This document shows positions 19,917 through 26,913 of a DNA stretch of 35,542 nt, one piece after another (the first letter of the stretch is position 1; each line of letters starts with the position of its first letter). The position numbers and the translations under genes are program-made. The stretch spans positions 1-35,542 of the IMG/VR virus record IMGVR_UViG_3300027974_000079, one strand, 5' to 3'. Origin of the DNA: a virus. The notes under the pieces were generated by a model. That model did no database searches and was not told where the DNA came from. It saw nothing but the letters and a program-made list of their open reading frames with translations.

Positions 19917-19990
19917 AAACACGGCTAGATAGGGCTTGATCTCCCTATCGAAAAGAGAAGTCTCCCCTCCTGCCGCAGTTTCTTTTTGGG
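19917..19990 (+). ncRNA. Candidate small structured RNA, possibly C4-like
   Basis: The 108-base gap before the DUF1376 gene contains a perfect 7-bp hairpin, GATAGGG (19928-19934) with CCCTATC (19943-19949), loop CTTGATCT. It can be enclosed by CGGC (19922-19925) and GCCG (19972-19975), and is followed by TTTCTTTTT. TCTCCC (19961-19966) can pair with GGGAGA downstream (19988-19993). The overall plan, own promoter, and GAAGTCTCCC-type block resemble, from memory, C4 antisense RNA of phage P1, which blocks translation of a downstream gene. This family match is unchecked. Confidence 0.45.
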
Positions 19991-20012
19991 AGAATTGGAA
20001 CAAGAGACTGTT

Positions 20013-20774
20013 ATGCACTATTACCAATTTCATATTGGTGACTACAAAAGTCACACCCATCATCTTTCTTTGATGGAAGATTTAGCTTACAGACGTTTGC
20101 TAGACTTCTACTTTCTCCATGAACAACCCATAAAACACCGAGATATTGCTCGTCAGATCGGTATGCGTGAGCATGAAGAAGACGTAATGACTGTCCTCAA
20201 TGAGTTCTTCATTTCAACGGCAGATGGCTTTGTTTCTCCTCGTGCAGATAAGGAAATCAAGCAATACAAAGAGTTTGCTGAAGCAGGTAAACGTGGGGCG
20301 GCTAAGAGGTGGGGAACACCCCCCAATGGGGAGGCTATTAGCCCCCCTAATGCTACCCCAATAGCAACCAATAACCATAAACCAATAACCAATAACCAAA
20401 TAAAAGAGAAAGCAACTAGCGTTGCAACACCTGTCGGTGTTTCTGATTCTGTTTGGCAGGAATTTAAAACTTTGAGGAAAGCCAAGAAAGCACCGATAAC
20501 CCAAAGAGCCATTGATGCCATAACCAATGAAGCAAACAAGGCAGGTTGGACTTTAGAAAAAGCTTTGGAGGAATGTGTTGTTCGTGGTTGGCAAGCATTC
20601 AAAGCAGATTGGGTTGCGACTAAAGCAAATCCTGCCGACATAGTAAGGCTCACAGTTCCAATGAGTTATGAGCCTGATCCTGCGCTTGAAAAGATTAAAG
20701 CTGATGAAAAAACAACTCGCCCTCCAACACCCGAAGAGAGAGCAATTCTTAACGCTTACAGGAGAAAAGCATGA
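20013..20774 (+). CDS. DUF1376-family replication-associated protein
   Basis: Start set at the ATG at 20013 (MHYYQFHIGDYKSHTHHLSL) rather than a TTG at 19986. The N-terminal ~95 residues match DUF1376 (YdaU-like): LSLMEDLAYRRLLDFYFLHE, then a winged-helix pattern with REHEEDVMTVLNEFF. After a basic, low-complexity linker (KRGAAKRWG then Asn/Pro-rich) there is a helical C-terminus (about 150-225) that resembles helicase-loader domains. Such proteins are thought to recruit host replication machinery. It is the only candidate replication initiator here. Confidence 0.8.
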   Translation: MHYYQFHIGDYKSHTHHLSLMEDLAYRRLLDFYFLHEQPIKHRDIARQIGMREHEEDVMTVLNEFFISTADGFVSPRADKEIKQYKEFAEAGKRGAAKRWGTPPNGEAISPPNATPIATNNHKPITNNQIKEKATSVATPVGVSDSVWQEFKTLRKAKKAPITQRAIDAITNEANKAGWTLEKALEECVVRGWQAFKADWVATKANPADIVRLTVPMSYEPDPALEKIKADEKTTRPPTPEERAILNAYRRKA

Positions 20775-21045: not shown

Positions 21046-21238
21046 CATTCAAGGCCCAAGCGATAGAGTAATTCTTGAGCAAGCCGAGGCAAGAGAGCTT
21101 TATCGGAATTGGGAAGGAAGTAAAAATCGTGATCTCATTCGTGCCAGACTTGAAAGAGCAGAGCGAATCTACGGCATTGGTGCTAGAGACAGGATCAGGG
21201 AATATATGAACCGAATCAAAGACGGAACACTTTTATGA
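21026..21238 (+). CDS. Small basic protein, unknown (70 aa)
   Basis: A GTG start gives MTWSRRNIQGPSDRVILEQA, then a basic helix (NRDLIRARLERAERIYGIGA) and REYMNRIKDGTLL. High Arg content suggests nucleic-acid contact. It overlaps the previous gene by 20 bases and the RusA gene by four. It sits in the replication/recombination operon; I know no function. Confidence 0.65.
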   Translation: MTWSRRNIQGPSDRVILEQAEARELYRNWEGSKNRDLIRARLERAERIYGIGARDRIREYMNRIKDGTLL

Positions 21239-21663
21239 CTTTTATGGTGACTTTTAAAGTAGACGCTAACCCTGTTGGCAAGCAAAGGGCTAGATATGTC
21301 AAGAGGGGAAACTTTGTGCAAACTTACACCCCTGAAAAAACTAGAACCTATGAGACTTTAATCAAAGATGCTGCAATCGAGGCAATGGGTGCTTCTGAAC
21401 CATTGGAAACCCCTGTTAGCCTTTATCTCTACATTCGAGTGCCAATCCCTAAGTCATGCACTAAAAAGCGTCTAGAAGCCATTTCTGACGGATCAGAGAA
21501 GCCAACAAAGAAGCCAGACGCAAGCAATATCCTAAAAAGCGTAGAAGATGGCATGAACGGGGTTGTTTACCATGACGATTCGCAGATCATAAATATCCAC
21601 GTTACGAAGGTTTATTCAAGTCTGCCAGGCGTTGATATTTGCGTAAAAGAATGCTTGGACTAA
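21235..21663 (+). CDS. RusA-like Holliday junction resolvase
   Basis: 142 residues with the RusA layout: GKQRARYVKRG (15-25) near the N-terminus, KKPDASNILKSVEDGMNGVV (92-111) with catalytic Asp candidates at 95 and 105, and YHDDSQI with Asp114-115. RusA resolves four-way DNA junctions by paired cuts, consistent with ERF-driven recombination and branched replication intermediates. It closes a tightly overlapping gene run, and its stop is followed directly by an operator-like site. Confidence 0.9.
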   Translation: MTFMVTFKVDANPVGKQRARYVKRGNFVQTYTPEKTRTYETLIKDAAIEAMGASEPLETPVSLYLYIRVPIPKSCTKKRLEAISDGSEKPTKKPDASNILKSVEDGMNGVVYHDDSQIINIHVTKVYSSLPGVDICVKECLD

Positions 21664-24254: not shown

Positions 24255-24264
24255 GGGTTTACCC
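24255..24264. promoter_or_regulatory. Operator-like palindrome GGGTTTACCC
   Basis: A perfect GGGT-TT-ACCC palindrome flanked by TTTA and TTAG. It lies between two convergent gene blocks, away from any obvious promoter. It could act in silencing, replication control or long-range looping with the array at 26827-26913. Confidence 0.5.
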
Positions 24265-24282: not shown

Positions 24283-24489
24283 GTACTCACTTCACAAAAT
24301 TAGGTAAGTTGGCGCTCACTTCGCTAAACCTAAAAATAGCGCATGAGACACAATCTAAATATATGCCTAGAATGCCATTAAAACCCGTTTTAAGCGCTTT
24401 TTTTGCCTAGGCTATATCTACTATGCTTTGCAACATGAAAACCGATTCTAGGCGCTTTAAGTCAATTTGCATGATGTGAGCGCTCACTT
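24283..24489 (+). repeat. Three spaced CTCACTT repeats with a 12-bp palindrome
   Basis: Copies are GTACTCACTT (24283-24292), GCGCTCACTT (24312-24321) and GCGCTCACTT (24480-24489), the first two 29 bases apart. Each is followed by a C-x-AAA-like tail (TCACAAAA, CGCTAAAC, ACAAAAC). The third lies in a perfect palindrome GTGAGCGCTCAC (24476-24487). Repeats of this kind can be initiator or regulator binding sites. Confidence 0.6.
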
Positions 24490-24502
24490 ACAAAACACTT
24501 TC

Positions 24503-24527
24503 AAAAAAACCCGCATATTGCAGCGGG
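24503..24527 (-). terminator. Intrinsic terminator of the leftward cassette
   Basis: Read leftward, CCCGC (24527-24523) and GCGGG (24514-24510) pair across an eight-base loop and are followed by seven T residues (24509-24503). It lies about 180 bases beyond the last cassette gene. In the rightward direction the same hairpin lacks a good U-tract, so it works mainly for the minus strand. Confidence 0.8.
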
Positions 24528-24686
24528 AATTTTGGAAAATGCTTTTTAGATGCTATCGATCAAAACCCAGAATTCCTCGATATAGCAGCATTTTTGCATT
24601 TTGGGATTGTGCAAAGCATGGCAAAAAACCATGCCAGCGACTATGCAATCAATTTCCATTAAGGTTTCATTTTCGCTTGTTATAAC

Positions 24687-24716
24687 ACCCACAGCTCCCG
24701 TTTTCATGCTGTGGGT
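24687..24716. repeat. Nine-bp inverted repeat at the cassette 3' end
   Basis: ACCCACAGC (24687-24695) and GCTGTGGGT (24708-24716) form a 9-bp stem with a 12-base loop that overlaps the stop codon of the last cassette gene. Downstream sequence on the minus strand (GTTATAAC) lacks a T-tract, so it may protect the 3' end or slow polymerase rather than terminate. Confidence 0.6.
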
Positions 24717-24949
24717 TCCTCAAGATCTGTCCATTGTTCGATTAATTCGGTTCCAGCGCACAATGCGGCCCTAATGCTTTGCAGCGCCAAGCCCCCATGA
24801 TACGAATTAAATTTATCGCTTTTCATGTAAACCTCAAACGCTATCAATGCACCAAAAACCGAATTGATATCATTTAAGCCCTCATAAACCATAAAATCAT
24901 TCAAAATTTTAGGGTGAATAGCGGGTTTTTTTACTTTTCTAATAGTCAT
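24704..24949 (-). CDS. Small helical protein, last gene of accessory cassette (81 aa)
   Basis: Start set at 24949 (MTIRKVKKPAIHPKILNDFM), preceded by GGGAGAC and overlapping the upstream stop as ATGA; 24985 would add 12 residues. The N-terminus is basic and the rest helical (LNDINSVFGALIAFEVYMKS, then ALQSIRAALCAGTELIEQWT). No family is recognised. It ends within a 9-bp hairpin and about 180 bases before the terminator. Confidence 0.6.
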   Translation of the reverse strand: MTIRKVKKPAIHPKILNDFMVYEGLNDINSVFGALIAFEVYMKSDKFNSYHGGLALQSIRAALCAGTELIEQWTDLEEPTA

Positions 24950-25116
24950 ACTGTCTCCCATGCTTTTAATGCTGCTTTTTTGCAATTTTCAACTTGATTT
25001 TTGGTTAACCCGTAAGCAATTTGTTCCGCTAAATCGCTTGCTTGCTTAGATTTTGCATCATTAGGCGCTGTCAATGCCAAAATGAGCGCTTGTGTGAGGG
25101 CTTGTGATTGTGTCAT
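24946..25116 (-). CDS. Small helical protein (56 aa)
   Basis: Start set at 25116 (MTQSQALTQALILALTAPND), with AAAAGG upstream. The longer open frame to 25326 lies within the GP88-like gene in another frame and is likely spurious. The protein is Ala/Gln-rich and helical, ending QVENCKKAALKAWETV. It begins ten bases after the GP88-like stop and is coupled to the following gene. Function unknown. Confidence 0.6.
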   Translation of the reverse strand: MTQSQALTQALILALTAPNDAKSKQASDLAEQIAYGLTKNQVENCKKAALKAWETV

Positions 25117-25126
25117 TGTGGGCCTT

Positions 25127-25792
25127 TTAATGTAGTTCGTAAGATATAACGCTGTCGCTCCAGCATTCCCGACAATCCAGGCAAGCCCCGTTTTGCTGGG
25201 GCGCTTTGCATGGTGAACCCATAGGGGTTTTTGTATGCACATTAGATGCTGTGATGCCTGGTACGTTTTGCAAGCTTGCGGGTATTTGTACGGGCTTATC
25301 GGGATACATTGCCGACAGTCGCACAATTAAATTTTGGGGAATGCTGTTTTTTCCATGCTTTGCAATAAAAGCTTTTATAACCCCGTATTCCCTAGTAGGT
25401 AACCAATGCATTGTGCTGGGTGTCGCATGGCATACCGCTGCTATTTTTTCTAAGTGATAAAGCCCTTGCAGATCTCCCGAATCATGCCAGCGAAAATAGG
25501 GATCTTTTCCAATATGGGAAACCATACCCGACACCCAAAATTCCCCGTTGATACTATCTAAGCGGGAAAATTGAGCGGGTTTAATGTTGTTTTCGTACAT
25601 TCGATAAAAGCCCTTATCCGCATAACACATAGAGCAGATAGAACCCTCGATTTTGGACATTTTAAAGCCAGTATCGCAAGCTTCAGTTGGTAGGCTGTAG
25701 CTTTTACATGGCATTTTTGACGTTGACGTAAGAGATCCGCAAGCTATTGCAGCCTGGGTTTTTGTCATTGGGATAATTGGGATAATTTTCAT
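25127..25792 (-). CDS. GP88-like cysteine-cluster protein (221 aa)
   Basis: Start set at 25792 (MKIIPIIPMTKTQAAIACGS) with AGGTG upstream; a longer frame to 25987 lacks a ribosome-binding site and overlaps the upstream gene. Cys39, Cys53-x2-Cys56 and a C-terminal Cys185, Cys194-x2-Cys197-x2-Cys200 (CLDCREC) could hold a metal or iron-sulfur cluster. FRWHDSGDLQG (100-110) and MHWLPTREY (118-126) are the conserved core I associate with the phage GP88 family, sometimes likened to radical-SAM folds. Its reaction is unknown. It is the largest gene of the leftward cassette. Confidence 0.7.
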   Translation of the reverse strand: MKIIPIIPMTKTQAAIACGSLTSTSKMPCKSYSLPTEACDTGFKMSKIEGSICSMCYADKGFYRMYENNIKPAQFSRLDSINGEFWVSGMVSHIGKDPYFRWHDSGDLQGLYHLEKIAAVCHATPSTMHWLPTREYGVIKAFIAKHGKNSIPQNLIVRLSAMYPDKPVQIPASLQNVPGITASNVHTKTPMGSPCKAPQQNGACLDCRECWSDSVISYELH

Positions 25793-25823
25793 GTAACACC
25801 TATTAAAAAAAAGAAAAAACAGT

Positions 25824-26048
25824 TTAGATTGTGCAGCACCCGCAACATGGTGCATCGATACAGCGGCCTTTTTTGTTCCTATAGAACGTATTTGGGCCGT
25901 TTTCACCAAAAAAAGTAATTGTGTCGCTATCGGGTTCAAGTACAGCCTTTTTTGTAGCTGTATCGTATAGGATCCAGTCCCCAACATTTATCACAGCCTG
26001 GGACTTTGAACACCTAGAACGGAATTTTGAGCGCATTTTTTTAAGCAT
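25824..26048 (-). CDS. Small basic protein with Cys-rich end (74 aa)
   Basis: Start set at 26048, with AGGTG upstream; a GTG at 26057 would overlap this site. The N-terminus is strongly basic (LKKMRSKFRSRCSKSQ). A small beta-rich section follows (INVGDWILYDTATKKAVLEP) and the end is CCGCC (RCIDAPCCGCCTI), likely metal-binding. It lies directly upstream of the GP88-like gene, so it may be a partner or metal donor. That link is inferred. Confidence 0.65.
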   Translation of the reverse strand: MLKKMRSKFRSRCSKSQAVINVGDWILYDTATKKAVLEPDSDTITFFGENGPNTFYRNKKGRCIDAPCCGCCTI

Positions 26049-26060
26049 TGTTGACACCTT

Positions 26061-26336
26061 TTAAATATTGCCTTCGGAGACATCACAGCAAGCTACCCAC
26101 AGTAAACGGGTTAAATTCTCATTATGATCGCTTAATTCTAGATCATTCCATGCCCCGTATTCCTTAAGAGCAGCGGAGACAATGACGGGATCTAGCTTTT
26201 TAAGTTGACGGGCAATAGACGGGTTTAGCTTTAAAGCTTCAACGTCAACGTCACATTGTCCTGGGTGGCTGCAGCTATCGGCCTGTTTTTTAGTGATCTG
26301 CAATTCGATTCGGCCTAATGATTCGGTCCAATACAT
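26061..26336 (-). CDS. Small helical protein, unknown (91 aa)
   Basis: Start set at 26336 (MYWTESLGRIELQITKKQAD), with AAGGGGCG upstream; 26366 would overlap the preceding gene. The middle reads DVDVEALKLNPSIARQLKKL, and the end LTRLLWVACCDVSEGN carries a Cys pair. All predicted helical apart from the first strand. It stops 12 bases before the next start. No family recognised. Confidence 0.6.
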   Translation of the reverse strand: MYWTESLGRIELQITKKQADSCSHPGQCDVDVEALKLNPSIARQLKKLDPVIVSAALKEYGAWNDLELSDHNENLTRLLWVACCDVSEGNI

Positions 26337-26346
26337 GATGCGCCCC

Positions 26347-26442
26347 TTACTTAACCAAAACGTCAAAGTAAGCCAGCATCAAAGCCAGCAAGCCGCAAAA
26401 CAATGCAAGCCCACAAAGTGATTGAAAGATAATTGATTTCAT
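26347..26442 (-). CDS. Tiny membrane protein, first cassette gene (31 aa)
   Basis: MKSIIFQSLCGLALFCGLLA then LMLAYFDVLVK is a single transmembrane helix. AGGTGT lies directly upstream, the same leader type as the genes at 26048 and 25792. A longer frame to 26754 has no ribosome-binding site and runs through the repeats, so I reject it. It is first in the leftward cassette, about 65 bases from a promoter candidate. Function unknown. Confidence 0.6.
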   Translation of the reverse strand: MKSIIFQSLCGLALFCGLLALMLAYFDVLVK

Positions 26443-26509
26443 ATTGACACCTATTAATGGATACGTTCCGATTGAACGTGCATTTATAGTAGCAACAAAA
26501 TAAAAGAAA

Positions 26510-26538
26510 AGTATAGGTACAAACCCTATGTTCAACAA
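26510..26538 (-). promoter_or_regulatory. Leftward cassette promoter with operator-like spacer
   Basis: On the minus strand TTGTTG (26538-26533), a 17-base spacer, and TATACT (26515-26510). The spacer contains GGGTTTGTACC, a variant of the operator core, in the same place as at 19303-19331. The -35 is weak. Transcription would start near 26503 and reach the first cassette gene after about 60 bases. Confidence 0.55.
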
Positions 26539-26826: not shown

Positions 26827-26913
26827 GGGTTTACCCTCATAGGGTTTCTACCTAGGGGTTTACCCTGTTAGGGTTTCTACGTAAGGGTGGGGTTTACCAG
26901 TAAGGGTTTACCC
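26827..26913 (+). repeat. Operator/iteron-like array of GGGTTTACCC
   Basis: Full or near-full palindromes lie at 26827, 26856, 26890 (GGGTTTACCA) and 26904. Variants GGGTTTCTAC lie at 26842 and 26871. Starts fall 15, 14 and 15 bases apart in the first four, so two copies of a 29-base unit (GGGTTTACCCTxxTA plus GGGTTTCTACxTAx) are visible. The array directly abuts the LexA box and ends in a C-run. Such arrays bind repressors or replication initiators. Confidence 0.8.

Follow-up and report, generated by a model that had tools for sequence, protein, structure and literature searches.

The Pfam family PF17338 (GP88), named after gp88 of mycobacteriophages L5 and D29, is a family without assigned function. 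Two other families resemble it, DUF7227 (PF23872) and DUF5131 (PF07505; phage Gp37/Gp68). Sequence matches to DUF7227 were found in 22 of 71 members (best E-value 3e-9) and to DUF5131 in four of the 71 (best 0.002, a weak match), and both families were also matched by fold (see below). Both are without known function, and no description of either being paired with a cysteine tag was found in the open-access papers searched. When open-access PMC was searched for GP88, DUF7227, DUF5131 and the tag reported here, nothing relevant was returned (subscription papers lay outside the scope of the search). Several hundred records of cultured phages (Mycobacterium, Streptomyces, Pseudomonas, Klebsiella and Gordonia) carry a GP88-superfamily gene. 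No solved homologue was found by sequence.

The window analyzed here, an IMG/VR virus record of 35,542 bases, contains a leftward block of seven ORFs (26442-24546) flanked by replication genes (primosomal/O-like gene, 19986-20774; RusA, 21235-21663) and by terminase genes (small subunit, 27806; large subunit, 28245). The sequence-only reading of this DNA had described a cassette between the replication and packaging blocks, and its position agrees with that description; six small genes had been counted where there are seven. All seven lie on the minus strand. The first, p1 (26347-26442), encodes a 31-aa membrane-type protein, MKSIIFQSLCGLALFCGLLALMLAYFDVLVK, and p2 (26061-26336) a 91-aa protein of unknown function that matches phrog_14450 (1.6e-15). 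The 74-aa protein p3 (25824-26048) ends in CCGCCTI and carries the cysteine tag described below (25827-25883, YRNKKGRCIDAPCCGCCTI). The fourth gene, p4 (25127-25792), encodes the 221-aa GP88 protein, and its proposed GP88 likeness was confirmed as membership of PF17338 (59.6 bits against a cut-off of 24.4). The remaining ORFs, p5 (56 aa, 24946-25116), p6 (81 aa, 24704-24949) and p7 (53 aa, 24546-24707), had no family in the Pfam and PHROG searches, p6 giving nothing above chance; p6 and p7 are proteins of unknown function. Profile searches of the cassette proteins thus returned PF17338 for p4, phrog_14450 for p2 and tail-only PHROG matches for p3. No known metal or antirestriction family was found for the small proteins in Pfam, PHROGs or NCBIfam, and a search for RNA families within the cassette returned none. 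Two cysteine-rich motifs and a tiny membrane protein had been noticed earlier, and all are present: CLDCRECW lies within GP88, CCGCC within p3, and the membrane protein is p1. The earlier statement that none of the products has a known role likewise holds for the cassette proteins.

To compare gene content, 80 loci encoding close relatives of GP88 were collected, and counts were taken from the nearest loci with enough flanking sequence. GP88 was present in 43 of 43, p1 and p3 each in 33 of 40, p6 in 29 of 36 and p7 in 25 of 36; p2 was a variable member (9/40) and p5 was never found (0/36). The dN/dS ratio, computed for p1 to p4, was about 0.10 for p3 and GP88 and 0.16-0.18 for p1 and p2 (0.18 for p1). 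A conserved module of six genes was ruled out, as p2 is rarely and p5 never conserved. The most constant core of the cassette is GP88 (25792-25127) with the CCGCC protein (26048-25824). It had been proposed that free variation of the GP88 neighbours would speak against a module; the answer is split, since p2, p5 and others do vary and the pair of GP88 and CCGCC-tagged protein is much more constant. Where GP88 is about 65-71 % identical, the p3 homologue is found downstream, 670-1140 bases from the GP88 start, rather than upstream, and most of the p3 homologues listed from these less close relatives retain the cysteine tail. We also observed that a p1-type membrane protein with a conserved C-terminal YFD[VI]L adjoins GP88 at loci that lack the tag protein as well. 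In three loci (L021, L023 and L025) a non-homologous protein of 136-138 aa (MNTITWVRKPHNF...) replaces the tag protein directly upstream of a GP88 that is about 89 % identical.

The cassette had been credited with its own promoter and terminator. An intrinsic terminator was found on the minus strand past p7, at 24527-24510 (CCCGC-TGCAATAT-GCGGG-TTTTTTT), and a hairpin with a T-run lies 3' of GP88 in every one of the 41 related loci whose sequence extends far enough, mostly in the same place. It is well supported because its stems differ among the relatives (CCCGC/GCGGG, CCCTG/CAGGG, ACCCAG/CTGGGT and AAACCCG/CGGGTTT) yet always pair. The promoter was not recovered: four sigma-70 sites were found against 8.8 expected, so none stands above chance, and none lies upstream of p1 on its strand. 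The AGGTG leaders said to be shared by the cassette genes precede p1, p3 and GP88 (3 of 7; among the 41 other starts listed, 1 has such a leader) and are absent from the remaining four.

The C-terminal tag of p3 has the consensus [Y/F]RNxxGRC[E/I]DAPCCGCC and is found at the end of small proteins that otherwise differ. When the DNA of DAPCCGCC only was used to search the 2.9 million viral contigs of IMG/VR, at least 119 loci were obtained; among the matches listed, 117 of 119 read in frame and fell close to the C-terminal end of an ORF, the ORFs being mostly small. The tag is usually trailed by one or two residues. The invariance of DAPCCGCC in this scanned set is by construction, because the search pattern fixes those eight residues. 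However, among 61 N-terminal homologues of p3, collected from GP88-seeded loci, 59 end in the tag, and one has DSP instead of DAP. Of the 133 distinct DNA versions of the tag, 130 encode Asn at the fifth residue ahead of the first Cys and 132 encode Gly at the second, both positions lying outside the search pattern. All wobble positions vary among these 133 versions, which indicates that selection acts on the protein.

The PHROG matches of p3 (phrog_2656, 6e-8; phrog_5664, 1.6e-5) are confined to this tail. Its N-terminus looks by eye like a degenerate zinc ribbon, and the N-terminal parts of the tag proteins in general are degenerate or intact zinc-ribbon-like (also by eye), DUF5710-like (a weak match, E-value 4e-4) or short and basic. 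In two loci (L154, 5562-6188; L167, 4578-5093) the tag sits on a protein with a weak match to the N-terminal domain of the antirestriction protein ArdC (E-value 0.006 for the L154 protein). The tag has no name in Pfam or NCBIfam. About 195 mycobacteriophage records match it, and 84,980 genomes of bacteria and archaea yielded only 11 loci, nine of them seen at a C-terminus; it is therefore largely viral. A composite query for a plasmid-borne tag gave no match.

Among the 117 tag loci listed, a GP88 ORF was found in 47 and one from a second enzyme group in 52, and 98 have either. Searches of whole records added four enzymes (GP88 in L089, L103 and L111, and a second-group enzyme of subfamily A5 in L152), so that a GP88-superfamily gene was found in 102 of 117 tag records, among the matches listed. 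When tag and enzyme occur together, they are on the same strand in 158 of 159 loci and within 700 bp in 155 of 159, and both gene orders occur. As some of the loci counted are close relatives of one another, the number of enzyme clusters is a fairer measure, and the tag-linked enzymes form eight clusters at a 40 % identity threshold. The pairing recurs with three divergent enzyme subfamilies, in very different phages; the subfamilies are GP88, a DUF7227-like one and a third that is unnamed.

The second enzyme group comprises two subfamilies, A4 and A5. When these were compared with each other and with the GP88 subfamily (A3) using hhalign, pairwise E-values of 2.7e-5 (A3-A4), 1.2e-4 (A3-A5) and 3.5e-9 (A4-A5) were obtained, the A3-A4 and A3-A5 matches with moderate probabilities (74 and 55), and by sequence the three look homologous. 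A5 is unnamed in Pfam and NCBIfam, save for a sub-threshold DUF7227 match. Seven cysteines are conserved in each subfamily, three of them towards the N-terminus and four towards the C-terminus. In p4 these are C39 (conserved in at least 90 %) and the invariant C53/C56 and C195/C204/C207/C210. The N-terminal spacings (CX13CX2C in A3, CX3CX5-6C in A4 and CX2CXnC in A5) are non-canonical for radical SAM enzymes, and Pfam Radical_SAM does not appear among the 25 families that 71 members matched, as listed, at an E-value of 10 or lower. Some GP88 relatives in tag loci, such as those of L121 and L145, have the three N-terminal cysteines only. The gp88 of D29 has a similar cysteine plan (CX6CX3C and a C-terminal CxxCxxC), but D29 lacks a tag-bearing protein.

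AlphaFold2 models were made for GP88 from 71 sequences (pLDDT 93.6, pTM 0.91) and for A4 from 14 sequences (pLDDT 91.9), and both subfamilies were predicted to adopt a TIM-barrel-like fold. When the models were compared with the PDB using Foldseek, neither had a match at an E-value of 1e-3 or lower; the matches were TIM barrels of many kinds, and designed or ordinary ones scored like radical SAM enzymes. Viperin was among the higher-probability matches of the GP88 model (probability 0.66). Among the viral models of BFVD, GP88 matched other GP88 proteins, including those of archaeal viruses, as well as DUF7227 and a Gp37/Gp68-like protein (probability 1.00). The predicted fold and the cysteines would fit a compact Fe-S enzyme of radical-SAM-like type, a reading suggested by the cysteine plan and the weak structural matches.

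The reading that we favour, at a probability of roughly 40 %, is that GP88 acts on the Cys tag of p3, either by modifying it or by supplying it with a cofactor. GP88 would then be a compact Fe-S enzyme, probably radical-SAM-like, with a catalytic [4Fe-4S] cluster bound by its three N-terminal cysteines at the opening of a small beta/alpha barrel and an auxiliary cluster bound by the four C-terminal ones (CxxCxxC type). The last ~17 residues of the partner (NxxGRC[E/I]DAPCCGCC) would serve as a dedicated recognition and modification site, which the enzyme would alter chemically or provide with a metal or Fe-S cofactor. The differing N-terminal domains (zinc-ribbon-like, DUF5710-like or short basic) might then bring the modified or metallated tag to its target during infection. 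The cassette had been suggested to be a metal-dependent modification or exclusion system; the former may reasonably be read from the seven conserved cysteines, and no pointer to exclusion was found.

The main rival holds that small regulator-like proteins carry the tag as a self-sufficient tail that binds zinc or Fe-S, that the chemistry of GP88 is separate (for example on tRNA or a nucleotide), and that the two genes are co-located only as accessory genes of one class. We regard this as quite possible, if tentatively, since a tail of five cysteines could simply bind zinc, some of the tag proteins have intact-looking zinc ribbons at their N-termini (HINdeR gp76 and L084, for example), and each partner is found without the other. 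The tag occurs without the enzyme in about 15 of the 117 listed virus records and in five of ten complete tag-bearing mycobacteriophages. The other five of these ten have GP88 (four Backyardiganvirus phages and Keziacharles14), while the five without it (Timshelvirus and Veracruzvirus) gave no match to GP88, A4 or A5. Conversely, the tag pattern is absent from the whole records of nine cultured GP88 phages, D29, Karimac, CRP-4, AM24, CRP-125, 023Pt_psg01, Tiffany, HTVC027P and Seuss, and in PAK_P1 and Superchunk the enzyme is present with no tag adjoining. The pairing is not obligatory, as complete genomes show most strongly. Phages with only one of the two partners imply that the enzyme may have other substrates, and that in certain phages the tag may act by itself, use another enzyme or be a relic. 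Against a plain metal-binding tail, the tag adjoins the enzyme in most virus records, in both orders and with three subfamilies, and a plain metal site has no obvious need for invariant Asn, Gly, Asp, Ala and Pro around its cysteines.

No recurrent alternative cysteine tail was found in the tag-less GP88 phages, and no common alternative enzyme beside the tag in the records without GP88. Gp11 of Streptomyces phage Karimac (L286, 1395-1898), encoded near the GP88 homologue, ends in GCGPDCSICG (DYGCGPDCSICG) and possibly carries a different tag. The A4 enzyme of Pseudomonas phage PAK_P1 (L318, 2501-3172; 1.7e-94) is annotated as hypothetical, and the A4 query finds matches in 166 records of Pseudomonas phages.

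The cassette might also be an ordinary accessory (moron) cassette in which unrelated small genes are swapped blockwise between conserved borders, with no functional pairing. The 35.5-kb window has four copies of GGGTTTACCC, all bracketing the cassette, where 0.12 would be expected: three lie upstream (26827-26913) and one past the terminator (24255-24264). At least one upstream copy was found in 43 of 43 relatives and the downstream copy in 34 of 40, despite varying cassette length. The downstream site lies between convergent genes and so is not an obvious promoter operator. The gene content from these sites to the terminator differs strongly among close relatives, p3 is missing in some, and another ORF stands in its place in L021, L023 and L025. 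Nevertheless, the low dN/dS of p3 and GP88 and the conservation of the pair far outside the lineage of the window make this reading unlikely. The intergenic region at 24290-24490 contains a GTGAGCGCTCAC palindrome along with AAGTGAG repeats, which might be iterons or mark an origin. It is improbable that the tag protein serves the enzyme instead, as a small Fe-S or thiol electron donor or as a cluster carrier maturing GP88: radical SAM enzymes require an electron donor, and the adjacency and the five closely spaced cysteines would suit one, but searches of Pfam and NCBIfam gave no ferredoxin or carrier family for the tag proteins, and many GP88 phages have no tag protein.

The GP88 family is known but functionless; what appears to be new is its pairing with the tag, and the recurring pair of enzyme and invariant tag appears undescribed. 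The same pairing beside three divergent enzymes in very different phages suggests an undescribed module of an enzyme and its tagged partner. For the GP88 superfamily, the near-invariant tag of the partner gives a concrete pointer to a substrate. Were the tag modified, viruses would have a post-translational chemistry whose recognition sequence is portable, and cultured phages such as Peaches and Keziacharles14 make tag modification testable. A wider and rather doubtful reading is that of a phage-specific protein-tagging system, in which an invariant C-terminal Cys tag on many small domains would be modified by a dedicated superfamily of compact Fe-S enzymes (GP88, a DUF7227-like branch and a third, unnamed one); tagged proteins would then gain a new chemical function during infection.

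Of the described systems, the radical SAM maturases of RiPPs are among the closest, as the predicted compact barrel, the three plus four cysteines and the adjoining gene for a small Cys-rich protein would fit such a system. SkfB (PDB 6efn) was among the higher-probability Foldseek matches of the A4 model, with a probability of 0.87 and a TM-score of 0.35, at an E-value of only 0.015. In contrast to the RiPP maturases, A3, A4 and A5 lack the CX3CX2C motif. No RiPP-type protease, export or transporter genes were found among the cassette proteins or recognised among the neighbour clusters. The layout of the partner differs from that of RiPP systems as well: here the would-be core is invariant, and it is the N-terminal part that varies.
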